Shown: one piece after another, positions 28,421-42,241 of the stretch
How positions within the stretch are numbered: position 1 is the first letter of the stretch
Layout: the number at the start of each line of letters is the position of its first letter
Assembly (NCBI RefSeq): GCF_013283835.1
Contig: NZ_CP054052.1
Coordinates: 2,852,001 to 2,916,000 of the forward strand
Source of the DNA: Poseidonibacter lekithochrous
GTDB taxonomy: Bacteria > Campylobacterota > Campylobacteria > Campylobacterales > Arcobacteraceae
DNA: 64,000 nt
Reading direction: 5' to 3'
Made by a program: the position numbers and the translations under genes
The notes under the pieces: model-generated
The model's input: the letters and a program-made list of their open reading frames with translations, nothing else
Database searches by the model: none
Told to the model about the DNA's origin: nothing

Positions 28421-28487
28421 AAAACTTATCTTTTTTTAAGGCATAATTGATAATAATTCTCACTTATTTTATCATTATAGGAATCCC

Positions 28488-28894: not shown

Positions 28895-29989
28895 ATGAAA
28901 AAACAATTAAGTATTATTGCAAGTGCGTTAGTATTAACATCAAGTGCAGTTTATGCAGACTCTAAAAATGTAGATGAAGCTTTCAAAAATGGTAAAGTTT
29001 CTGGAGATATCTCTGTACATACACAATCTTGGGATAATGGAGCAGGAAATAAAGATGCTGGATTTACTGCTGGAACTATCGGAGTAAACTACTCAACTGA
29101 TTCTGTAAATGGAATTTCTGCAAATGCTGGATTTAGAGCTGGACATAAATTTGGTGAAAAAGAAAATGACGATTACAAAGGTGATTTTGAACAAAACTCT
29201 GTGATGAATGTTGCAAATATTTCTTATTCAAATGATTTAGTATCTATTACTGCTGGTAGACAAGAAATTGATTTAGAATGGTTAGGTGACTTCAATGAAG
29301 CTATCGTTGTTGCTACTACTGCTATTCCATCAACTACTTTAGTTGCTGGTTATACTTCTAGACAAGCTGCTGTTGGTGGAGATGAATTAAAGAAATTTGC
29401 TGACGTTACTAAAGATGGTGCTTACGTTGTTGATGCAAAATTTGAAGGTGTTGAAAACACAGTATTAAACCCATACTTCTACTCTGCTAAAGATGTAGCT
29501 GATTTCTATGGTATTAAAGCTGATTTCGATACTGATGCATTTGGTGTAACTGCTCACTATGCTACAAGTAATGAAAAGGTTGCTAATGCTAAAGACGGTT
29601 CTATCATGCATTTCGAAGCTAGAGCAGCTGTAGCTGGTTTTGCTTTTGCTGCTGGTTACATTGATACAGATAAAGATGCAGGTGTTGCTTCAATTTCTGC
29701 ATTCGGTGATAATGTTGATCCTACTGAAGAATTAGGTGATTACGTTTACGCTGCTAATACTTCAACTATTTATGCATCAGCTGCATATACAATTGCTGAC
29801 GTAGAATTATCTGCATTATACGCTAAAGCAGAAAATGACACTACAAACAAAGAAGATTCAGAAGTAACTGTAGGTGCTGCTTATGGTATTACTGATAGCT
29901 TAAGTGCTGACGTTATGTACACAGACTTATCTTTAGATTCTGATGTAGATAAATCAAAATTAGTTGCTAATTTAACTTTCGAATTCTAA
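28895..29989 (+). CDS. Outer-membrane porin
   Basis: 364 residues. A signal peptide (KKQLSIIASALVLTSSAVYA) is followed by a mature chain rich in alternating polar/aromatic beta strands and glycine, ending in LVANLTFEF with the C-terminal phenylalanine needed for Bam-dependent insertion. The GDISVHTQSWDN start and AGRQEIDLEWLGDF segment suggest the Campylobacterota OprD/MOMP-like porins. The codon pattern (heavy GCT, GTT, AAA) looks like a highly expressed gene. A Fur box covers its promoter, so it is likely induced by iron limitation. A strong terminator follows. Confidence 0.88.
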   Translation: MKKQLSIIASALVLTSSAVYADSKNVDEAFKNGKVSGDISVHTQSWDNGAGNKDAGFTAGTIGVNYSTDSVNGISANAGFRAGHKFGEKENDDYKGDFEQNSVMNVANISYSNDLVSITAGRQEIDLEWLGDFNEAIVVATTAIPSTTLVAGYTSRQAAVGGDELKKFADVTKDGAYVVDAKFEGVENTVLNPYFYSAKDVADFYGIKADFDTDAFGVTAHYATSNEKVANAKDGSIMHFEARAAVAGFAFAAGYIDTDKDAGVASISAFGDNVDPTEELGDYVYAANTSTIYASAAYTIADVELSALYAKAENDTTNKEDSEVTVGAAYGITDSLSADVMYTDLSLDSDVDKSKLVANLTFEF

Positions 29990-30068: not shown

Positions 30069-30083
30069 TGATAATTATTCTCA
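30069..30083 (+). promoter_or_regulatory. Fur box 1 of the DUF2325-flavodoxin operon
   Basis: TGATAAT-T-ATTCTCA, 13 of 14 matches to the 7-1-7 consensus. Confidence 0.7.
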
Positions 30084-30116: not shown

Positions 30117-30136
30117 TATACTAATAATGATTATCA
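30117..30136 (+). promoter_or_regulatory. Promoter -10 and Fur box 2 of the DUF2325-flavodoxin operon
   Basis: -10 TATACT (30117-30122) abuts the Fur box TAATAAT-G-ATTATCA (30122-30136, 13 of 14). Two boxes within 70 bases indicate tight iron repression. Confidence 0.78.
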
Positions 30137-30229: not shown

Positions 30230-30559
30230 ATGAGTATATTAGTAATTGGTGGAGATAAAATTTCACACATTTCAGCAATGTTAGAAGGACTAGGTGCAAA
30301 AACAATTAACCATTGGGATGCAAGAAAAAAATCTTCAGCACCAAAAAAGAAAGTGCCATTAGATACAGACTGTATTGTTATGTTAACATCTTTTTTAAAT
30401 CATAATACAATGTTAAAATATAAAAATGAAGCAAAAAAGAAAAACATTCCATTTGTTTGTGCTAAGAGATCTATTTCTTGTGTTTACGATGAATATGTAA
30501 AGATTATGGGTATTAAAGATTGTGCTGACTGTTATGCTAACTGTGAGAAGAAGAAATAA
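30230..30559 (+). CDS. DUF2325 family protein
   Basis: 109 residues: MSILVIGGDKISHISAML start, a DCIVMLTSFLNHNTMLKYKNEA core, and a cysteine-rich tail DCADCYANCEKKK. DUF2325 proteins are small Rossmann-like proteins of unknown function. It follows the 21-residue peptide (AAGGAG site) and overlaps the next gene as TAATG. Iron control is indicated by the upstream Fur boxes. Confidence 0.85.
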   Translation: MSILVIGGDKISHISAMLEGLGAKTINHWDARKKSSAPKKKVPLDTDCIVMLTSFLNHNTMLKYKNEAKKKNIPFVCAKRSISCVYDEYVKIMGIKDCADCYANCEKKK

Positions 30560-31854: not shown

Positions 31855-31883
31855 AAAAACTAAAAGTTTAACTTTTAGTTTTT
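31855..31883. terminator. Bidirectional terminator between fldA and fur
   Basis: AAAAACTAAAAG / CTTTTAGTTTTT, 12-bp stem, loop TTTAA, followed by A/T tracts on both sides. It overlaps the stop of the convergent fur gene. Confidence 0.85.
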
Positions 31884-32322
31884 ATTTACTACATGTTTCA
31901 CAAGTTCCATACAGTTGCATAGAGTGACTAGTAATTTTAAATTTATTCTTTTTTGCAATTCTATCTTGTCTTTTTTCAATTTCATCATCTAAAAACTCAA
32001 CAATTTTACCACACGATGTACAAATCAAGTGATCATGGTGAGACTTAGCATTGCTTTCATATTTTTTACCATCTGTTCCAAAAGTAATAGATGTAATTAA
32101 ATCTACCTCTTCTAGAAAGCTTAAAGCTCTATAAACAGTTGCAATACCTATATTTGATTCTTTATATTGGCTTTTAATTTCATTGTATACTTCTTCAGCA
32201 CTTAAATGATCAGTAGCATTAATTAAAATATTAAGAACAATTTCTCTTTGTTCTGTGTATTTTAAACCTTTTTGCTTAACAATTTTTTTAAGTTCTTCTA
32301 TTACTTCTTCATTATTTACCAT
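31882..32322 (-). CDS. fur: Fur family regulator (copy 1)
   Basis: 146 residues. The winged helix (KYTEQREIVLNIL...HLSAEEVYNEI...IGIATVYRALSFLEE) is followed by the metal-binding dimerisation domain with HHDHLICTSCGKIVEF and a terminal CETC. This is a standard Fur with both the regulatory His/Asp site and the structural Cys4 zinc site. Probably the main iron regulator of the surrounding genes, though PerR-type sensing cannot be excluded; a second paralogue is at 41583-42029. No strong Fur box lies directly upstream. Confidence 0.9.
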   Translation of the reverse strand: MVNNEEVIEELKKIVKQKGLKYTEQREIVLNILINATDHLSAEEVYNEIKSQYKESNIGIATVYRALSFLEEVDLITSITFGTDGKKYESNAKSHHDHLICTSCGKIVEFLDDEIEKRQDRIAKKNKFKITSHSMQLYGTCETCSK

Positions 32323-32387: not shown

Positions 32388-32639
32388 CTAATTATTCTCG
32401 TTTGATAATAAAACTTCTTTATCTTTTTTACTAGGTATTGTTTTTTTCTTTTTTTTGTCAGTTGGTTTGTATAAAGTATGATGCCATAAAGCAAATCCAC
32501 AGAAGGCTACACCTGCGATTACATGAGTCTTTTTAGCTAGTTTATTTTTCATAAACATTGAAGTTACTACAGTAGCTCCTAAAGTTGCTGTCATTCCAAT
32601 TTTGGCAACTTCTTTCTTAACTTCTAGATCAAGTTTCAT
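32388..32639 (-). CDS. Small membrane-associated protein of the iron cluster
   Basis: 83 residues from the ATG at 32639 (AAAAAGGA directly upstream); a TTG ten codons earlier is less likely because it lies inside the overlapping small gene. Two short hydrophobic, glycine-rich segments (IGMTATLGATVVTSMFM and VIAGVAFCGFALWHHTLY) are followed by a lysine-rich tail. Family not recognised. It follows a perfect Fur box and a 39-residue gene and is downstream of the ferrosome-like operon, so it may be another membrane component. Confidence 0.65.
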   Translation of the reverse strand: MKLDLEVKKEVAKIGMTATLGATVVTSMFMKNKLAKKTHVIAGVAFCGFALWHHTLYKPTDKKKKKTIPSKKDKEVLLSNENN

Positions 32640-32748
32640 TCCTTTTTTTCCTTCTTTGTCTTCTATCAATAGTTTTTTTTGTTCCTTTTAAAGTCTCATA
32701 AGTTAATGCTGCTGTAATAACAGTAGCAAGTGGTAAAATAAATGGCAT
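32629..32748 (-). CDS. 39-residue single-helix membrane microprotein
   Basis: MPFILPLATVITAALTYETL, then a basic tail KGTKKTIDRRQRRKKRNET. One transmembrane helix and a strongly basic cytoplasmic end. The ATG has AAGGAAAA upstream; the stop overlaps the next gene's start by 11 bases, giving coupled translation. It sits 13 bases downstream of a Fur box. Confidence 0.6.
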   Translation of the reverse strand: MPFILPLATVITAALTYETLKGTKKTIDRRQRRKKRNET

Positions 32749-32761
32749 AAAATTTTCCTTT

Positions 32762-32776
32762 TGATAATAGTTATCA
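32762..32776 (-). promoter_or_regulatory. Fur box, proximal, before the two small membrane-protein genes
   Basis: TGATAAT-A-GTTATCA, 13 of 14 matches, 13 bases before the 39-residue gene. Confidence 0.75.
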
Positions 32777-32807
32777 GTATATTATCTAATCAAAGATTAA
32801 AGTAAAC

Positions 32808-32822
32808 TGATAATTATTATCA
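32808..32822 (-). promoter_or_regulatory. Perfect Fur box before the two small membrane-protein genes
   Basis: TGATAAT-T-ATTATCA, 14 of 14 to the 7-1-7 consensus, the best in the window. It lies in the gap after the P-type ATPase gene, marking a second, internal iron-regulated promoter for the genes at 32748-32388. Confidence 0.85.
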
Positions 32823-32830
32823 AGGTCATT

Positions 32831-34945
32831 TTACTTATTTAATTTAACACCCTTAATTGAGTTTAAAAGTAATCCAATAGTTGTACCATTATGTAAAATT
32901 GCAGTTACAATAGGTGAAAATGCACCAAATGTAGCACCTGCAAGAATAGCAGAGTTAATACCAACTGTTGCATTGAAATTCGTATTAATTAATTTCATAG
33001 TTTTATTTGCCAACTCTTTTGCTTCTACAACTGCACCAATATCATCTTTTAATAAAGACACATCAGCAGTAGCTTTAGCAATATCAGCACCTTTACTCAT
33101 AGATATTCCAACATGTGCAGAGATTAAAGCAGGAGCATCATTAATACCGTCACCAACAAATGCTACTTTTCTTCCCTCATCCATCATCTTTTTAACAATT
33201 GATGCTTTATCCGTTGGAAGAAGCTCAGAATATACCTCATCAATACCTAATTCTTCAGCTACCATCTGAGCTTTTTTATCTACATCACCTGTAAGCATAA
33301 CTGTATGTTTTACTCCAAGTTCTTTCAATCTTATAATTGATTCTTTTGTGTTGTATCTAATTTGATCACTTAAAGCAATTGTTCCAAGTAAAGTATTCCC
33401 ATAACCTATATAAAGTAATGTTTTTCCTTCATCTATACTTTTATCAATCTTTTCTTTATGAGCAGAAAAATCAATTCCTTCATCATCTTCTAAAAAGTGT
33501 CTACTTCCAATTACTACAGTTTTTTCTTTTACTTCTGTTTTTACACCATGAGCCACAATAAACTCAACTTCTTCATGGTGCATATGTACGAAACCTCTTT
33601 TTTTAGCAGCTTTTACAACCGCTTCAGCAACAGGATGGAAATAATGTTCTTCCGTACTAGCTGTAAGATTTAGAACTTCTTCTTCAGTCCAATTCTCATC
33701 AAAAGATTGAACTTCAATTACTTCTAAATCCCCTTGAGTTAAAGTACCAGTTTTATCAAAGATAAAAGTATCAGCTGAATTTAATGCTTCAATTGATTTA
33801 GCACCTTTAATCATAATACCTTCATGCCCTGCTTTTGAAATCGTAGATTTAAAAGCAACTGGAGTTGCAAGTTTTAAAGCACATGAATAATCTGCTTGTA
33901 AAATAGAAGCTACTCTCTCAAAGTCTTTTTTCATCACATAAGAAACACCCGCTAAACCTAAAGTAACAGGTACAAGTTTATCAGCTAGTTTAGTAGCTTT
34001 TAATTGTACAGATGACTTTTCATTTAATGAGCTTTCAATATAGTGCTTAATTCTTTGTGTAGCTGTATCAGCTCCAACATGCTCAGCCCAGATTTTTAAT
34101 CTACCCTCTTCTAAAACAGTTCCAGAGATAACTCTATCTCCTCTTTGTTTCTTTAAAGGTTCAGCTTCACCAGTCATAGATACTTGATTTACACTAGCAT
34201 CTCCGTATACAATATGACCATCTACAGGAATAGTACTACCAGCAGAAACTACTACAATATCACCTACTTGAATCTCTTCACTAGGTACTAATTTTTCTAC
34301 TACTTTTCCATCTTCTTCTTTTTCAACCCATGCTTCTTTAACATTAGGTTTTGATAACTCTTTTAATAAGTCATCACTTCTATGAACTGTAGTCTCTTCA
34401 ATATACTCACCTAACTCTAACATTGCATTTGTTGAGTTTGCAGCAAGATAATCTTTTCTTAATAATGATATACCAACAGCAGCACTTTCTAATACTCTTG
34501 AAGTTAATCCTTCTTTGAATAACTCTTTTGTACCATCAATTAATAATGGAGTAGCAGCAGTTGTAGCAAAAGTTGCATTTATAAAATCATTTTTTATAAA
34601 TCTCTCACTAACTAAGGCAGCACTAGCAAGTCCAACACCTTTTAAGCTTGGTTCCTCATCACTAACACAAGATACACAAACTGAAGCTTCATTATCAATA
34701 CTACTTAATAGTTTATCACTATCAACACCTCTTAATCTATCTTCTATTTCTTCACTTACATCTTCACTGAAAGTAAAAATAATACTTAAGGCTTTTTTAT
34801 TAATTCTAACAGAAGTAACATGCTCTATTTTTTCAAGATATCTCTTAAGTATATTATCATCAATGTATTCATCTTTTAAAAGCTCAAATTTATATCTTGC
34901 CCGTGAAGATGTACCATGAACTTTTTTGAATCTATTTCCGCTCAT
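32831..34945 (-). CDS. P1B-type heavy-metal ATPase, ferrosome (FezB)-like
   Basis: 704 residues. The P-type core is complete: TGE (258-260), phosphorylation site DKTGT (D397), HP motif (EEHYFHPVAEA) and GDGINDAP. The ion-path motif is DYSCALKLATP (352-362) instead of the CPC of copper/zinc pumps, placing it in an uncommon P1B group. The N terminus lacks CxxC and has HGTSSRARYKF (H10, R15, R17), resembling HMA_2 domains. Context (HMA-like protein, ferritin-like protein, small hydrophobic proteins, Fur boxes, feoAB) suggests iron transport into a storage compartment, as for FezB of ferrosomes. An iron exporter is the alternative. Confidence 0.85.
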   Translation of the reverse strand: MSGNRFKKVHGTSSRARYKFELLKDEYIDDNILKRYLEKIEHVTSVRINKKALSIIFTFSEDVSEEIEDRLRGVDSDKLLSSIDNEASVCVSCVSDEEPSLKGVGLASAALVSERFIKNDFINATFATTAATPLLIDGTKELFKEGLTSRVLESAAVGISLLRKDYLAANSTNAMLELGEYIEETTVHRSDDLLKELSKPNVKEAWVEKEEDGKVVEKLVPSEEIQVGDIVVVSAGSTIPVDGHIVYGDASVNQVSMTGEAEPLKKQRGDRVISGTVLEEGRLKIWAEHVGADTATQRIKHYIESSLNEKSSVQLKATKLADKLVPVTLGLAGVSYVMKKDFERVASILQADYSCALKLATPVAFKSTISKAGHEGIMIKGAKSIEALNSADTFIFDKTGTLTQGDLEVIEVQSFDENWTEEEVLNLTASTEEHYFHPVAEAVVKAAKKRGFVHMHHEEVEFIVAHGVKTEVKEKTVVIGSRHFLEDDEGIDFSAHKEKIDKSIDEGKTLLYIGYGNTLLGTIALSDQIRYNTKESIIRLKELGVKHTVMLTGDVDKKAQMVAEELGIDEVYSELLPTDKASIVKKMMDEGRKVAFVGDGINDAPALISAHVGISMSKGADIAKATADVSLLKDDIGAVVEAKELANKTMKLINTNFNATVGINSAILAGATFGAFSPIVTAILHNGTTIGLLLNSIKGVKLNK

Positions 34946-34953
34946 ACTGATCC

Positions 34954-35394
34954 CTAAAATTCTTTTGTTTCCATTTGAGCTTTTGCATCTTCCATTCTTT
35001 CTTTTAACTCTTCAATACCAGCTTGAACTAATTCAGACCCTTTTGAGAAACCATTAAAAATAGCTTTTTGAGTTGTTTTATTTGTAAGAAGAAATGCAAT
35101 TCCTGCACCAATTAAAGCACCTTTAACAAAATCACCATTAACAAAAGAATCATTGTTTTGTCCATCTACTGGCATTTGATTATTCATGTTATTAGCATTT
35201 TGATTAATATATGGGTTATTTTGCATACCCGTATTATTTACTAGTGGAGTATTCATATTATTAATATATGGATTATTTTGAATTCCAGCATTTGCAGCAT
35301 TAACTGGATTTGTTGAATTTACTTGATTTACATTCCCCTGAGCATCAGCTGGGTTTTGTTGTAAATCTGCTGGGTTTTGATTATTGTTCATCAT
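34954..35394 (-). CDS. Asparagine-rich protein with one glycine-rich hydrophobic helix
   Basis: 146 residues. The first ~85 are low-complexity Asn/Pro/Gln with near repeats: QNPAD twice and NNPYIN twice within related 20-residue blocks. Next comes the hydrophobic GALIGAGIAFLLTN (about 90-104), then an amphipathic acidic-basic helix (GIEELKERMEDAKAQME). Such small Gly-rich membrane proteins with disordered tails recur in magnetosome and ferrosome clusters. It overlaps the preceding gene by 14 bases and precedes the ATPase gene by 8. Confidence 0.7.
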   Translation of the reverse strand: MMNNNQNPADLQQNPADAQGNVNQVNSTNPVNAANAGIQNNPYINNMNTPLVNNTGMQNNPYINQNANNMNNQMPVDGQNNDSFVNGDFVKGALIGAGIAFLLTNKTTQKAIFNGFSKGSELVQAGIEELKERMEDAKAQMETKEF

Positions 35395-35761
35395 TTAATA
35401 CTTCCTTTTCAATACTTTCACAAGCTAATTCTTCTTCAAATACTTCTTCATCCAAATCGGCATTGAATTTTTTATCAATCATTTCAACAGCGTAAACACC
35501 CATTGCACCAATACTTAATGCAGTTAAGGCTTTAAACATTCCGTTTTTTTGTCCCTTATAATTACTAGCAGCTACTACACTTGCAGTTGCAATTGTACCT
35601 TGAGTTGTTCTTTTAACTACTTCTTTAATAGCTTTACTAGGTGTTGCTTCACCTTTTCTAACTTTCATTACATTTACTGTACCTGCTGCTAATAAAGATA
35701 CAGCTGCACCACTTACAATATGATGTTTCATAACACCAGTATTTTCAAAACTACTTTTCAT
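35381..35761 (-). CDS. Small membrane protein of the ferrosome-like operon
   Basis: 126 residues. Two or three short hydrophobic, Ala/Gly-rich stretches (HIVSGAAVSLLAAGTVNVM; GTIATASVVAASNY; ALTALSIGAMGVYAVEMI) and an acidic C-terminal tail (DLDEEVFEEELACESIEKE) that could bind metal cations. No named family recognised. It overlaps both neighbours (1 base with the gene before it, 14 with the one after), so expression is tightly coupled. Confidence 0.7.
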   Translation of the reverse strand: MKSSFENTGVMKHHIVSGAAVSLLAAGTVNVMKVRKGEATPSKAIKEVVKRTTQGTIATASVVAASNYKGQKNGMFKALTALSIGAMGVYAVEMIDKKFNADLDEEVFEEELACESIEKEVLNDEQ

Positions 35762-35991
35762 TAAACTTCTCCGCTTTTTTCTTTTTCTTCTACTGTTTGG
35801 CTATTTTCTTTTTTATCAATTTTATCTTTTACACAAGCTACTGTTGATTCTACATTTTTTTTCACATCACTAGCTAAATCTTTTGATTTTTCTAAAATAT
35901 CATGTGTTTTATCTTGAATTTTTTTACTTCTATTAAAAGCTACTACTGCCCCTGCGCCTACTGCTATACCTAAAATAAATGGAAGTGCCAT
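35761..35991 (-). CDS. YtxH-like small protein
   Basis: 76 residues. An N-terminal glycine-rich membrane helix (ALPFILGIAVGAGAVVAF) is followed by a charged amphipathic helix (KKIQDKTHDILEKSKDLASD...), the pattern of YtxH/DUF-type anchored coils. It starts 10 bases after the ferritin-like gene. Probably a membrane-bound scaffold; function unknown. Confidence 0.7.
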   Translation of the reverse strand: MALPFILGIAVGAGAVVAFNRSKKIQDKTHDILEKSKDLASDVKKNVESTVACVKDKIDKKENSQTVEEKEKSGEV

Positions 35992-36001
35992 AATAAACTC
36001 C

Positions 36002-36682
36002 TTATTCTTCTTCGTTTATATCTTCTTTATTCATTAGATTACTAAGTGTTACTCCACCAAGTGCACCAACTGCTAGACCACCGATAACTGACATATTCAT
36101 ATTTGATAACATTGATACTATTTTGTTTTGATCGATATTACCACTCATAGCATCTTCAATTAATGTTTGATACTCAGCCATATTATCCATCATATTTCCT
36201 GCATTATTTTGCTGGTTGTTTTGATTATAAAAAGAATCAACACTATTTCTAAATGCTGGTAAATGATTATTATAAGATGCTGCTTGAATTCTATAAAATA
36301 GATCTCTTACATCTGGTTCATTTACATACATTAATAAATTGTCATATAAAGCAATATTATCAATTTCTGCTGATACTGCTATTTCACAACACTCTTGTAA
36401 AGTGTTAGGTAATTCAATTTGTGTTTGAGAAACAAAAGGTGCTTCAATACCGTACTTCTGCATTAATGTTACAGTTTCATTGTAATGTGTAATTTCAGAA
36501 TTAATAATATTAGCAAAAGGCATAACATTACCGAATTTCATAATTACATTATTATATGTATTATAAGCCTCAAATTCATCAAAAGCTGCAATTCTTAAAG
36601 CTTGTGCTAAAACTGGTTGAGGATCATTTGGGTTTACTCTTTGAGCATCTAATAACGCTTGATCTACATTTACTTGTTGCAT
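36002..36682 (-). CDS. Ferritin-like domain protein
   Basis: 226 residues. Residues ~20-150 form a four-helix ferritin-like fold with spaced metal ligands: RIAAFDEFEAYNTYNNVI, NSEITHYNETVTLM (E, H, E), CCEIAVSAEIDNIALYDNL and a helix with NNHLPAFRNSV. This resembles DUF2202/erythrin-vacuolar-iron-type domains. The C-terminal end has a Gly-rich hydrophobic segment (VIGGLAVGALGGVTLSNLM), so the protein is probably attached to a membrane. Adjacent to the HMA-like gene (no gap). Likely iron binding or oxidation at the storage membrane. Confidence 0.78.
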   Translation of the reverse strand: MQQVNVDQALLDAQRVNPNDPQPVLAQALRIAAFDEFEAYNTYNNVIMKFGNVMPFANIINSEITHYNETVTLMQKYGIEAPFVSQTQIELPNTLQECCEIAVSAEIDNIALYDNLLMYVNEPDVRDLFYRIQAASYNNHLPAFRNSVDSFYNQNNQQNNAGNMMDNMAEYQTLIEDAMSGNIDQNKIVSMLSNMNMSVIGGLAVGALGGVTLSNLMNKEDINEEE

Positions 36683-36997
36683 TTACACTACCTCCTTGGC
36701 TAAAGTATTTATAATAGAAGAAACCTCTTCTAAATTTCTTTGTGCGATTAAATCTTCCCATAAAGATGGTCTAAAAACATTTGCATCATAAGTAATAGTA
36801 ACTGATGCTATAATTTTTTTTATTTTTATCTCTTTTATTCCATCTATTTTATTTGGAAGATTTTCAATATCTGCAAGTGTTAAATTTCCACCCTCTTTTA
36901 TGATTTTTGGGTTTACTCTCACTCTTAACCTACCAGGTGAATGAGCAATAATTGAAAAATAATTTGCAATTTTAATAATATCTTCTGTTTCAATCAA
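36683..36997 (-). CDS. HMA_2-like domain protein, first gene of the ferrosome-like operon
   Basis: 104 residues. IIAHSPGRLRVRVNPKII has the H-x3-GRxRxR pattern of HMA_2 domains, lacking the CxxC of copper chaperones. The beta-alpha-beta end (IASVTITYDANVFRPSLWEDL) fits the fold. Such domains accompany or precede P1B-type ATPases of the iron-storage group. The start is TTG at 36997 with AAAGGA upstream. A Fur-boxed promoter lies about 130-165 bases further upstream. Confidence 0.75.
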   Translation of the reverse strand: MIETEDIIKIANYFSIIAHSPGRLRVRVNPKIIKEGGNLTLADIENLPNKIDGIKEIKIKKIIASVTITYDANVFRPSLWEDLIAQRNLEEVSSIINTLAKEVV

Positions 36998-37128: not shown

Positions 37129-37162
37129 ATTATAACAATATTAATCTTAATAACAATTATCA
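37129..37162 (-). promoter_or_regulatory. Promoter and Fur box of the ferrosome-like operon
   Basis: On the minus strand the Fur box TGATAAT-T-GTTATTA (37162-37148, 12 of 14) is followed by the -10 TATAAT (37134-37129). The leader to the TTG at 36997 would be about 125 bases. The rest of the 343-base divergent region holds no gene. Confidence 0.65.
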
Positions 37163-37294: not shown

Positions 37295-37322
37295 TATAAT
37301 TATATTATAATAATCATTATTA
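37295..37322 (+). promoter_or_regulatory. Promoter and Fur box of feoAB
   Basis: -10 TATAAT (37295-37300) and, just downstream, TAATAAT-C-ATTATTA (37308-37322), a perfect palindrome with 12 of 14 consensus matches. It lies 18 bases before feoA. Confidence 0.72.
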
Positions 37323-37340: not shown

Positions 37341-37568
37341 ATGACTCTAGATAAACTAGAAATCGGAAATAAAGCCACAATAAAAAGTATTAATTGTGAC
37401 TCAGCACTAAAGAATAGATTTTACTCATTTGGAATAATAAGAAACTCAATTATTTCAGTAGAAGAGCTAACACTTACAAAAAGTACAATAGAAATAAAAA
37501 TCAACTCTACAAAAGTAGCATTAAGACTAAAAGAAGCTTCGACTATTGAGGTTGAAAAATGTTCATAA
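37341..37568 (+). CDS. feoA: Ferrous iron transport protein A
   Basis: 75 residues, SH3-like FeoA: LDKLEIGNKATIKSINCD at the N terminus, then NRFYSFGIIRNSIISVEE and the final ALRLKEASTIEVE. It assists FeoB, probably by binding its cytoplasmic side. Overlaps feoB by 10 bases. Preceded by a Fur box and by AAGGAAAA. Confidence 0.9.
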   Translation: MTLDKLEIGNKATIKSINCDSALKNRFYSFGIIRNSIISVEELTLTKSTIEIKINSTKVALRLKEASTIEVEKCS

Positions 37569-39682
37569 AAGATATAAAAGAAATAAAAACAATTAAAGTA
37601 GCATTAGTAGGACAACCCAATGTTGGAAAATCAATGCTTATTAACTCAATTTCAAATGCAAGATTAAAAGTTGGTAATTTCTCAGGAGTTACAGTTGCAA
37701 AAGAAGAAGTATTTTTATCATATAAAAACTACAAAATTGAAATAACAGACCTTCCTGGTTCATACTCATTAAATGACTATACATTAGAAGAAAAAGTAAC
37801 AAAAGAATTTTTAGATAACTCACCTTATGATATTATCCTAAATGTTTTAGACTCAACGAACTTAGAGAGAAACCTATTTTTAACTTCAGAGCTTTTAGCT
37901 TTAGATAAAAAAATGCTTATTGCTTTAAATATGAGTGATGAAGCCCATAAAGAAAATATTCAAATAGATGATAATCAACTAAGTAAAATTCTTGGTAAAC
38001 CTTGTATTAAAACAAGTGCTGCTAAAAACATGGGGATATCTAATTTACTTGAAGCAATTGTTTCAAAATTTGAAGATGATAAACTTCCTACAAAATTAAT
38101 TTTCTCAGATGTAATAGAAGAAGAGATTCAAAATATTGTTGAATTCTTTGAGGATTGTGGATTTAGAACTCCTAATACATATAGACAATTAGCAATTAAA
38201 TTACTAAAAGAAGATAAACAAACATATAAACAAATTCATGATGAACCAATTTGGGTTAAATTACAAGTTGTTCTAAATAATGCTTTTGAACATATGTATA
38301 TTCATTACAATACAAAAAATATTGAAGATATCTTTAATGATGAAAAATTTGCTTTTGCTAGAGGAGCTGTTAGAGAAACAGTTAAACAACCAAGTATTTT
38401 AACAAAAACTATTACTGATAAAATTGATTCACTTTTAATTCATAAAATTTTTGGATTACCAATTTTCTTATTTTTAATGTGGGGATTATTTCAACTTACT
38501 TTTGAGTTAGGAAATATTCCTATGGATATGATTGATGCATTTTTTGCTTCATTAATAGATAGTACAAAAGAAATTTTAGGAGATAATGAACTCTCATCTG
38601 TTATAGCAGATGGAGCAATAGCAGGAGTTGGAGCTGTTATACTTTTTGTTCCTAATATTGTAATTTTATTCTTTGGTATTGCTTTGCTTGAAACAACTGG
38701 TTATATGAGTAGAGTTGCTTTTCTTTTAGATGGTTTCTTTCATAAATTTGGATTACATGGAAAATCATTTATTCCCTTAGTTACAGGGTTTGGATGTTCA
38801 GTTCCTGCTTATATGAGTGCAAGAACACTTAAAAATGAAAAAGATAGACTACTTACACTATTTATTATTGGATTTATGTCTTGTGGAGCTAGGCTTCCTA
38901 TTTATGTGCTATTTACTGGGGCATTTTTTAGTGAAGACAACGCTGGTAATATTCTATTTTTAATTTATATTTCAGGAGCTATTTTAGGACTTATTGCAGC
39001 AAAAATGCTAAAAATTGTGGTATTTAAAAGTGAAGATGAACCTTTTGTAATGGAAATGCCAAAGTATAGAATGCCATCATTTAAACTAATTTGGCATACA
39101 GTTTCAAACCAAGCATTAATGTATCTAAAAAAAGCAGGAACATATATTTTAGCTGCTTCTGTTTTAATCTGGTTTGCATCAAACTATCCAAAACATTTAG
39201 ATATGGATATTCAATATGAAACAAAAATTGAACAAGCACAAACTCAAGATTTAAAAGATAGTTTAGCAAGTGAACATGCTTTATATAATCTTGAAAATTC
39301 ATACCTTGGTAAAATTGGTAAGTTCTCAGAACCTGCATTTGCACCATTAGGTTTTGACTGGAAAATGGCAGTAGCTTTAGAAACTGGTCTTGCAGCAAAA
39401 GAAATTGTTGTATCAACTCTTGGTATTTTATATGGATTAGGGGAAGATCATGATGAAAGTTCATCAGGATTAATGGAGAAAATCAAAAAGAATATTCCTC
39501 TTGCATCAGCAATAGCCTTTATTGTATTTGTAATGATTTATTTACCTTGTTTAGCAGCATCAATGGTATTTGCAAGAGAAGCTGGAGGATGGAAGTATTT
39601 AGCATACTTATTTGTCTTTACAACAGGAACAGCTTGGGGATTAGCCTTTTTAGCTTATAGTATTGCAGTAGTAGTTATTTAA
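37559..39682 (+). CDS. feoB: Ferrous iron transporter FeoB
   Basis: 707 residues. The G domain has G1 GQPNVGKS (18-25), G2 GNFSGVTV, G3 DLPGSYSL and G4 NMSD. A helical linker is followed by the membrane domain with two Gate motifs (LVTGFGCSVPAYMSAR near 425; AALETGLAAKEIVVSTLG near 610). It imports Fe(II) across the inner membrane. The C-terminal membrane half is of normal length. Divergent from the ferrosome-like operon, suggesting that uptake and storage are regulated together. Confidence 0.97.
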   Translation: MFIKDIKEIKTIKVALVGQPNVGKSMLINSISNARLKVGNFSGVTVAKEEVFLSYKNYKIEITDLPGSYSLNDYTLEEKVTKEFLDNSPYDIILNVLDSTNLERNLFLTSELLALDKKMLIALNMSDEAHKENIQIDDNQLSKILGKPCIKTSAAKNMGISNLLEAIVSKFEDDKLPTKLIFSDVIEEEIQNIVEFFEDCGFRTPNTYRQLAIKLLKEDKQTYKQIHDEPIWVKLQVVLNNAFEHMYIHYNTKNIEDIFNDEKFAFARGAVRETVKQPSILTKTITDKIDSLLIHKIFGLPIFLFLMWGLFQLTFELGNIPMDMIDAFFASLIDSTKEILGDNELSSVIADGAIAGVGAVILFVPNIVILFFGIALLETTGYMSRVAFLLDGFFHKFGLHGKSFIPLVTGFGCSVPAYMSARTLKNEKDRLLTLFIIGFMSCGARLPIYVLFTGAFFSEDNAGNILFLIYISGAILGLIAAKMLKIVVFKSEDEPFVMEMPKYRMPSFKLIWHTVSNQALMYLKKAGTYILAASVLIWFASNYPKHLDMDIQYETKIEQAQTQDLKDSLASEHALYNLENSYLGKIGKFSEPAFAPLGFDWKMAVALETGLAAKEIVVSTLGILYGLGEDHDESSSGLMEKIKKNIPLASAIAFIVFVMIYLPCLAASMVFAREAGGWKYLAYLFVFTTGTAWGLAFLAYSIAVVVI

Positions 39683-41527: not shown

Positions 41528-41571
41528 AGTATATCATTGCTTAGGTTAATTTTAATTGATAACGATTATCA
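41528..41571 (-). promoter_or_regulatory. Promoter with Fur box of the diguanylate cyclase gene
   Basis: On the minus strand TGATAAT-C-GTTATCA (41571-41557, 13 of 14) lies about 24 bases before a -10 TATACT (41533-41528), covering the -35 region. AAGGAG-type signals are absent close to the start codon. Confidence 0.7.
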
Positions 41572-41582
41572 TAATTTATATT

Positions 41583-42029
41583 TTATTGACATTTCTCACA
41601 AATTCCATAAATTGTCATAATATGGTCTTTTAATAAAAAGTTGTTTGCTTTAGCAACTTTTTCTTGTTGTTCTTCTATTAAATCATCTGTAAACTCGATG
41701 ATAGCACTACAAGAAGTACAAATCATATGGTCATGATGAATAGAAATGTTTAGCTCATATCTTTTAGCACCATCACCTATATCTAAAGAATTTACAATAT
41801 TCATTGTTTCAAAGAATTTCACAGTTCTATAAACTGTAGCAATTCCCATGTCTATTTTATATAATGTTTTTGCAATATTTACTATTTGCTCAGCACTTAA
41901 GTGCTCATCACTAAAATATAATATCTTTAAAATATAATCTTTTTGAATTGAATTTTTATAGCCTGATTTAACAACAGATTTTTTAAAATTTTCCAAGAAT
42001 GATTCAAAACTAATTTCATATCTTCTCAC
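41583..42029 (-). CDS. Fur family regulator (copy 2)
   Basis: 148 residues. Winged helix (SIQKDYILKILYF...HLSAEQIVNIA...MGIATVYRTVKFFE) and metal domain with HHDHMICTSCSAIIEF and terminal CEKC. It differs from copy 1 at about half the positions by eye and has a longer N terminus. The GTG start shares a base with the stop of a preceding 43-residue gene. Two Fur boxes lie upstream, so it is itself iron-regulated. Could be Fur, PerR or a specialised Fur for this cluster. Confidence 0.88.
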   Translation of the reverse strand: MRRYEISFESFLENFKKSVVKSGYKNSIQKDYILKILYFSDEHLSAEQIVNIAKTLYKIDMGIATVYRTVKFFETMNIVNSLDIGDGAKRYELNISIHHDHMICTSCSAIIEFTDDLIEEQQEKVAKANNFLLKDHIMTIYGICEKCQ

Positions 42030-42170: not shown

Positions 42171-42185
42171 TAATAATTATTATCA
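42171..42185 (-). promoter_or_regulatory. Fur box upstream of the microprotein-fur2 operon
   Basis: TAATAAT-T-ATTATCA (plus-strand reading), 13 of 14 matches, 11 bases before the GTG of the 43-residue gene. Confidence 0.75.
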
Positions 42186-42226: not shown

Positions 42227-42241
42227 TGATAATAATTATCG
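42227..42241. promoter_or_regulatory. Fur box in the divergent region of fur2 and the 42298 gene
   Basis: TGATAAT-A-ATTATCG, 13 of 14. It could act on both the minus-strand fur2 operon and the plus-strand gene at 42298. Confidence 0.72.

Follow-up and report, generated by a model that had tools for sequence, protein, structure and literature searches.

Known ferrosome systems and the Poseidonibacter locus

Ferrosomes, organelles of bacteria that were recognised only recently, have so far been shown in a handful of organisms. They were defined in Solidesulfovibrio (Desulfovibrio) magneticus RS-1, whose fezABC ferrosome cluster was reportedly described by Grant et al. in 2022. The subject of the present analysis is a group of genes in a 64,000-nucleotide stretch of the Poseidonibacter lekithochrous genome (NZ_CP054052.1, positions 2,852,001 to 2,916,000; hereafter the window), which probably make up a ferrosome (fez) cluster whose type is distinct and occurs mainly in Campylobacterota. 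Among the ferrosome proteins, FezC was shown experimentally to be a heme protein (cytochrome) (PMC11334425). In Rhodopseudomonas palustris CGA009, ferrosomes are made by six fez genes, RPA2333-2338 (PMC12016538), and, according to a review that summarises the work of Pi et al. (2023), Clostridioides difficile needs two Fur-repressed products, the membrane protein FezA and the transporter FezB, for its ferrosomes (PMC12574912). A further system for comparison is PacL1-CtpC, in which a one-helix disordered or coil protein scaffolds a P1B6-like ATPase into membrane foci (PMC9374683).

Compared with RS-1 fezABC, the window cluster is alike in having an ATPase of the FezB clade with its motifs, the transmembrane part of FezC with an H-x13-H pair, and a small one-helix coil protein encoded before FezB. 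RS-1 FezC is a single protein made of an HMA2 domain and a transmembrane part, whereas in the window these are two genes at opposite ends of the cluster; and RS-1 is without genes for a ferritin-like protein (FLP), a small hydrophobic protein (Sm126) and an Asn-rich YtxH-like protein (AsnYtx), all three of which the window has. The alphaproteobacterial cluster of Azospirillum resembles the window in HMA2, Sm126, AsnYtx and FezB, but it has no ferritin-like gene and its FezC is fused to HMA2, a form that coexists there with a separate HMA2 gene. The R. palustris CGA009 cluster is likened here by its six-gene size, from its description only, while the C. difficile gene set is simpler than that of the window as the review describes it (PMC12574912). 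The window cluster thus represents a kind already known, and its tail-modular ferritin-like subunit and split FezC set it apart as a variant from RS-1.

The ATPase and its relation to FezB

Evidence for the ferrosome reading comes from the ATPase (704 amino acids; 32831-34945, minus strand). Its transmembrane helix 4 (TM4) bears the motif DYSCALKLATP, starting at D352, in the place of CPC, as the first-pass annotation of this region had pointed out; transmembrane helix 6 (TM6) bears HNGTT, and an HMA2-like domain lies at the N-terminus. For the comparison with FezB that had been proposed at the same time, the RS-1 reference genome was recognised by its plasmid pDMC1 (100% match, identical coordinates). 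The best FezB-like gene of RS-1, at 3.19 Mb, stands in a locus that encodes a small coil protein, a 743-amino-acid ATPase and a 146-amino-acid protein that combines an HMA2 domain with a short hydrophobic C-terminus. These are taken to be fezA, fezB and fezC, and the make-up of the last agrees with the literature, where FezC is called DUF4405-like (PMC11334425). Over 567 amino acids, RS-1 FezB and the window ATPase share 40% identity.

A careful tree was built from 46 proteins. The 25 ATPases in it that bear D(Y/F)SCA, or DYACP in the case of two from purple bacteria, all fall into one group, which includes the window protein and RS-1 FezB, with bootstrap and Shimodaira-Hasegawa-like approximate likelihood ratio test values of 95/89. 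Its sister is a set of cyanobacterial and planctomycete ATPases with DFGTGIRV-type motifs, and the CPC and CPG ATPases are set apart with support of 100/99. A quick tree, of 86 rows, recovers the FezB grouping with a support of 97. A phylogeny that put the ATPase among iron or zinc exporters had been named beforehand as refuting the reading; the result favours a fez cluster, the ATPase grouping with RS-1 FezB and not with the CPC-type copper/zinc P1B ATPases. The HN pair in TM6, a stated feature of P1B6 ATPases (PMC9374683), is present in every one of the 33 FezB-clade members tested. By phylogeny and motif, the window ATPase belongs to the P1B-6 FezB clade. In this 3.57-Mb, one-contig genome, a search with the E1-E2 ATPase family returned only two P-type ATPases, the fezB-like gene and a CPC-type gene resembling copper exporters.

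A second link to the RS-1 fez genes is provided at the end of the locus by an 83-amino-acid protein (32388-32639, minus strand) resembling DUF4405-type cytochrome subunits. Its start is placed at the ATG at 32639, as in its orthologs, in preference to a TTG open reading frame (ORF) of 93 amino acids (32388-32669). The Pfam DUF4405 match is weak (0.039), but a hidden Markov model (HMM) of the Campylobacterota 83-amino-acid proteins matches residues 91-140 of RS-1 FezC with an E-value of 4.5e-5, and both putative heme histidines of the H-x13-H pair align. By profile comparison the protein is a FezC homologue, corresponding to the C-terminal (transmembrane) half, and its heme binding is putative. 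It follows from this match and the aligned histidines that RS-1 FezC corresponds to two genes here, its HMA2-like half to the first of the cluster and its transmembrane half to the last. This model and the others used for homologue searches at the fez loci of other groups were built from Campylobacterota sequences only, with a search size of 10,000. A scan across genomes that had the universal P-type signature F[VI]GDG[IV]ND among its seeds sampled other phyla unevenly.

Some relatives carry longer FezC-like copies. In L043 (9868-10506) the protein is fused to a SpoIIAA-like (STAS-type) domain (Pfam, 1.2e-19), and copies of similar length (200-217 amino acids) occur in L044 (9649-10302) and probably in L189, L192, L193 and L059.

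The ferritin-like protein

FLP (226 amino acids; 36002-36682, minus strand) is the second gene of the operon and had been singled out in the first reading as distinctive, which is borne out: it combines a DUF2202-type four-helix domain (residues ~20-150) with a Gly-rich C-terminal helix (~197-221), and it is without counterpart in RS-1 FezABC. The Pfam DUF2202 match is at 8.6e-6 (26.1 bits against a cut-off of 22). The AlphaFold2 (AF2) model has a predicted local distance difference test score (pLDDT) of mostly 93-98 over residues 21-150, with one loop at 72, and gives the C-terminal helix low confidence. MJ0754 (PDB 3q4n/3q4o), also a DUF2202 protein, is the best match both in PDB profile comparison (5e-7) and in Foldseek, where it is accompanied by the Dps-like PA4880 and bacterioferritins. 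As modelled, FLP has the DUF2202 ferritin-like fold.

Residues E36, E63, H66, E106 and H140 are found in the window FLP and in 38-40 of 40 orthologs, and are predicted metal-ligand positions, by which FLP could potentially bind iron or act as a ferroxidase. The usual Glu of helix 4 is absent (Y137/N138 in the window), and MJ0754 is alike in having a His there without the Glu (SRNH versus YNNH); it differs from the window FLP in that the latter has the Gly-rich C-terminal tail and sits in a fez cluster. In one Campylobacterota family, f10 (L034, L179-L188, L196), 12 of 14 FLP sequences are without two or more of E63, H66 and H140, in clusters that are otherwise intact, and the f10 protein is an apparent pseudo-ferritin.

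The C-terminal 60 residues behave as a module of their own, as a tail-only HMM matches proteins with low-complexity N-termini at the fez loci of other phyla (Desulfarculaceae, 3.7e-9; genome G364, 3.1e-6; Cereibacter, 4.8e-5). The tail is a probable membrane anchor, since it is Gly-rich and mildly hydrophobic and resembles the YtxH-like helices. The ferritin-like head also occurs at the fez loci of Pseudothauera (a betaproteobacterium), a gammaproteobacterium and Methylocystaceae. A role of FLP as encapsulin cargo was rejected, the NCBIfam EncB match (0.0081) being far under the cut-off and treated as chance.

The HMA2-like, coil and small membrane proteins

The first gene of the operon encodes an HMA2-like protein (104 amino acids, TTG start; 36683-36997, minus strand) with a Pfam HMA_2 match of 1.2e-6, slightly below the cut-off. 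Its homologues at the fez-type clusters of alpha-, beta- and gammaproteobacteria reach E-values of ~3e-12 to 1e-17, and it is a putative iron-handling or docking domain. The third gene, Ytx1 (76 amino acids; 35761-35991, minus strand), encodes a YtxH-like and tentatively FezA-like coil, with one N-terminal membrane helix by hydropathy. Its HMM matches the protein in the FezA position of RS-1 at 9.8e-4, a value of low specificity as both are short helical proteins, and the corresponding proteins of other Desulfovibrionaceae, two of them DUF6110-type, at 4.7e-5 to 6e-4.

Sm126 (126 amino acids; 35381-35761, minus strand), encoded by the fourth gene, has two hydrophobic segments by hydropathy and an AF2 model of three helices at low confidence (pLDDT 67); homologues stand at the equivalent place in beta-, gamma-, alpha- and Desulfobacterota-type clusters, with E-values down to 4.5e-13. 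The fifth gene, AsnYtx (34954-35394, minus strand), encodes a disordered N-terminus with 21% Asn, a membrane helix and an amphipathic coil, GIEELKERMEDAKAQ. The first-pass annotation had taken this Asn-rich protein for a distinctive member, a claim that did not survive: the fez-type clusters examined from alpha-, beta- and gammaproteobacteria and Desulfarculaceae encode the same coil protein, of which this one is an AT-rich version. Homologues lie directly 5' of FezB in Pseudomonadota clusters (6e-12 to 5e-31), occur also in Desulfarculaceae, and are found together with Sm126 homologues at the fez-type loci of Azospirillum, Vibrio, Photobacterium, Hahella and Pseudothauera. Elsewhere the N-terminus is Pro/Gly/Tyr-rich or short, while the membrane helix and coil stay; as its composition changes by lineage, it is a disordered arm with a residue make-up that tracks the composition of the genome. 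Matches of the small proteins to Mms6, MamC or MamH (0.06-0.08, NCBIfam) were treated as chance.

Operon structure and predicted Fur control

The six genes from HMA2-like to ATPase had been described as one overlapping, Fur-boxed operon divergent from feoAB, in the pattern of fez clusters. All six are open, on the minus strand, and run contiguously from 36997 to 32831 with small overlaps or gaps of ~10 bases or less. The divergence holds, with feoA (37341-37568; Pfam FeoA 2.9e-16) and feoB (37559-39682; Pfam FeoB_N 1.6e-56), for ferrous iron uptake and transport, on the plus strand. The locus as a whole makes up two transcription units instead of a single one: after a gap of 83 bp, which holds two Fur boxes, follow sm39, a 39-amino-acid ORF with one hydrophobic segment (32629-32748, minus strand), and the FezC-like gene that it overlaps, together spanning 32748-32388 as a second Fur-boxed unit. 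The fur gene lies just 3' of this pair (31882-32322, minus strand; Pfam FUR 2.9e-42, NCBIfam TransRegFurHelico 9e-45).

Fur boxes were scored as mismatches to the consensus TGATAATNATTATCA. The promoter of the six-gene operon has a Fur-box-like site at 37148-37162 (2 mismatches; 0.02 of shuffles as good), and two boxes lie 5' of sm39, at 32808-32822 (no mismatch; none of 60 shuffles as good) and 32762-32776 (1 mismatch). A further Fur-box-like site is found 5' of feoA (37308-37322, 2 mismatches). Across loci, a box with at most 2 mismatches precedes sm39 in 25 of 28 cases and HMA in 16 of 40 (25 of 40 with at most 3), while boxes with at most 3 mismatches were found 5' of FezB in none of 41 loci and 5' of FLP in only one of 38. 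Two Fur-controlled units are supported by this pattern, because the boxes are kept at HMA and sm39 and lacking at the inner genes. Fur control of the cluster, by boxes predicted at both promoters and conserved across relatives, is a supported conclusion. In C. difficile, too, fez is Fur-repressed, according to the review (PMC12574912).

Conservation and distribution

The gene order is kept in more than 50 of the relatives sampled, and nearly all relatives with the cluster share the sequence HMA, FLP, Ytx1, Sm126, AsnYtx, FezB, (sm39), FezC-like, sm39 being represented in most by an ORF of 33-58 amino acids at the equivalent place. The cluster is not a product of chance, because the identical order returns in dozens of related genomes. 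A clear ATPase ortholog, of 47-98% identity, is present in ~38 of 100 relatives, the next matches dropping to 31-35%. Within the genus the distribution is patchy (4 of 10 genomes, window included). FLP profile matches occur in 119 of the 397 Campylobacterota genomes sampled, and clusters are present in Arcobacter-type and Sulfurospirillum genomes.

Proposed function and alternative explanations

The FezB clade, the FezC homologue, the conserved Fur boxes and the divergent feoAB together give the fez-cluster pattern that had been proposed. The ferrosome reading is further favoured because the six-gene clusters of Azospirillum are alike in make-up and R. palustris CGA009 ferrosomes depend on six fez genes (PMC12016538). 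It is well supported at the level of the genes, from which we infer the organelle itself. Under iron starvation, Fur would release the two fez promoters together with feoAB, and Ytx1, Sm126, AsnYtx and the FLP tail may form or mark out inner-membrane patches that become small vesicles. Once iron is available again, Fe(II) would enter the cell through FeoB and the P1B-6 ATPase would pump it from the cytosol into the vesicle lumen, where it would be deposited, both the direction and the metal being presumed. Docking or delivery of metal might fall to the HMA2 protein and to the N-terminal HMA2-like domain of the ATPase; a FezC-like homodimeric protein, presumably binding heme, may move electrons across the vesicle membrane for iron deposition and remobilisation; and the tail-tethered ferritin-like domain, probably cytosolic because a signal peptide was not seen in FLP, could gather or oxidise Fe(II) beside the pump. 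A more tentative extension is a hybrid store, in which the ferrosome surface is coated by tethered FLP that hands captured or oxidised Fe(II) to FezB, the tail is a fez module with swapped ferritin-like or low-complexity heads, and the f10 head is a structural-only pseudo-ferritin.

Several points weigh against a ferrosome here. The cluster is known from its sequence, and its composition departs from the best-known example, as RS-1 FezABC is without the ferritin-like, Sm126 and AsnYtx proteins; the link between Ytx1 and FezA is weak, and of the clusters of RS-1, R. palustris, Shewanella and C. difficile the sequence comparison covers that of RS-1. The metal chemistry of FLP does not appear essential to the cluster everywhere, because f10 has a degenerate site and keeps the rest. 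Ferritin storage would also not be replaced by the fez cluster, because the genome carries an additional, separate ferritin/Dps-family gene outside it (contig positions 1188612-1189016; PF00210, 4e-37).

The main rival, which we consider unlikely, is a metal efflux platform in the cytoplasmic membrane, where coils like PacL1 would scaffold the ATPase, as in PacL1-CtpC, and Fe(II) or another metal would be exported with no vesicle involved. Like that system, the window encodes small one-helix proteins, here candidate scaffolds, together with a P1B6-like ATPase. The authors of the PacL1-CtpC study propose a scaffold role also for DUF6110 proteins whose genes accompany P1B6 ATPase genes (PMC9374683); RS-1 FezA is weakly DUF6110-like (0.049), and in two other Desulfovibrionaceae the likeness is clearer (1e-5 to 3e-5). 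Of the DUF6110-P1B6 pairs considered, however, the closest is that of RS-1, a demonstrated ferrosome system, so that the two ideas converge. PacL1-CtpC is, moreover, zinc-induced and has a CPC motif and DUF1490 (PMC9374683), whereas the window cluster is predicted to be under Fur control, its ATPase is without the CtpC-type CPC motif, and a family profile search of its coil proteins gave no DUF1490 match. As the predicted Fur boxes and feoAB imply expression in starvation, export would then be counter-productive.

That FLP itself does the storing, with the ATPase and membrane proteins as accessories, would suit its ferritin fold and the ligand positions conserved in most orthologs, but is highly improbable: the site is lost in f10, which keeps every other gene, and clusters of other phyla keep the rest without a ferritin-like domain. 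Single-domain DUF2202 proteins are also not known to form cages. Least credible, and here rejected, is a conventional P1B exporter operon for copper or zinc/cadmium; generic heavy-metal models do match the ATPase (NCBIfam TIGR01525 at 3.8e-147, and TIGR01512), but it has DYSCALKL in TM4 with neither CPC nor CPH, its clade is strongly separated from the CPC and CPG ATPases, and its setting has Fur boxes and feoAB.

If the cluster makes ferrosomes, the trait would be widespread in Campylobacterota, and the ferrosome would gain a candidate iron-handling enzyme with natural variants that have or lack the metal site, making iron capture and oxidation at its membrane directly testable. A literature search, which did not extend to two primary ferrosome papers and on which no claim of priority is based, returned no work that connects ferrosomes with Campylobacterota or with a cluster member of ferritin-like type.

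Further features of the window and its relatives

A second Fur-family gene lies in the window at 41583-42029, flanked by strong Fur-box-like sites at 41557-41571, 42171-42185 and 42227-42241 (1 mismatch each), and a Fur-family gene often precedes the fez cluster in relatives. Other such sites with 1 mismatch (28448-28462, 30069-30083, 30122-30136) surround an outer-membrane-protein-like gene (28895-29989) and a DUF2325 gene (30230-30559). A DUF2325 gene also adjoins the fez cluster of Arcobacter sp. DSM 115972 (L048), which is complete, includes the ferritin-like gene and is carried on a 134-kb plasmid (CP129951.1).

In the relative L163 (G038), fezB is broken into two open frames (308 and 324 amino acids), by a gene defect or a sequencing error. 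Many relatives (L042, L043, L044, L174, L181, L183, L187-L190, L192, L193) have a second P1B-type ATPase gene directly 5' of the HMA gene. Its product has the TM4 motif SCPCAT in L042-L044, where it was read, and branches in the tree apart from both FezB and the usual CPC exporters; genome G364, too, has a relative next to fezB.

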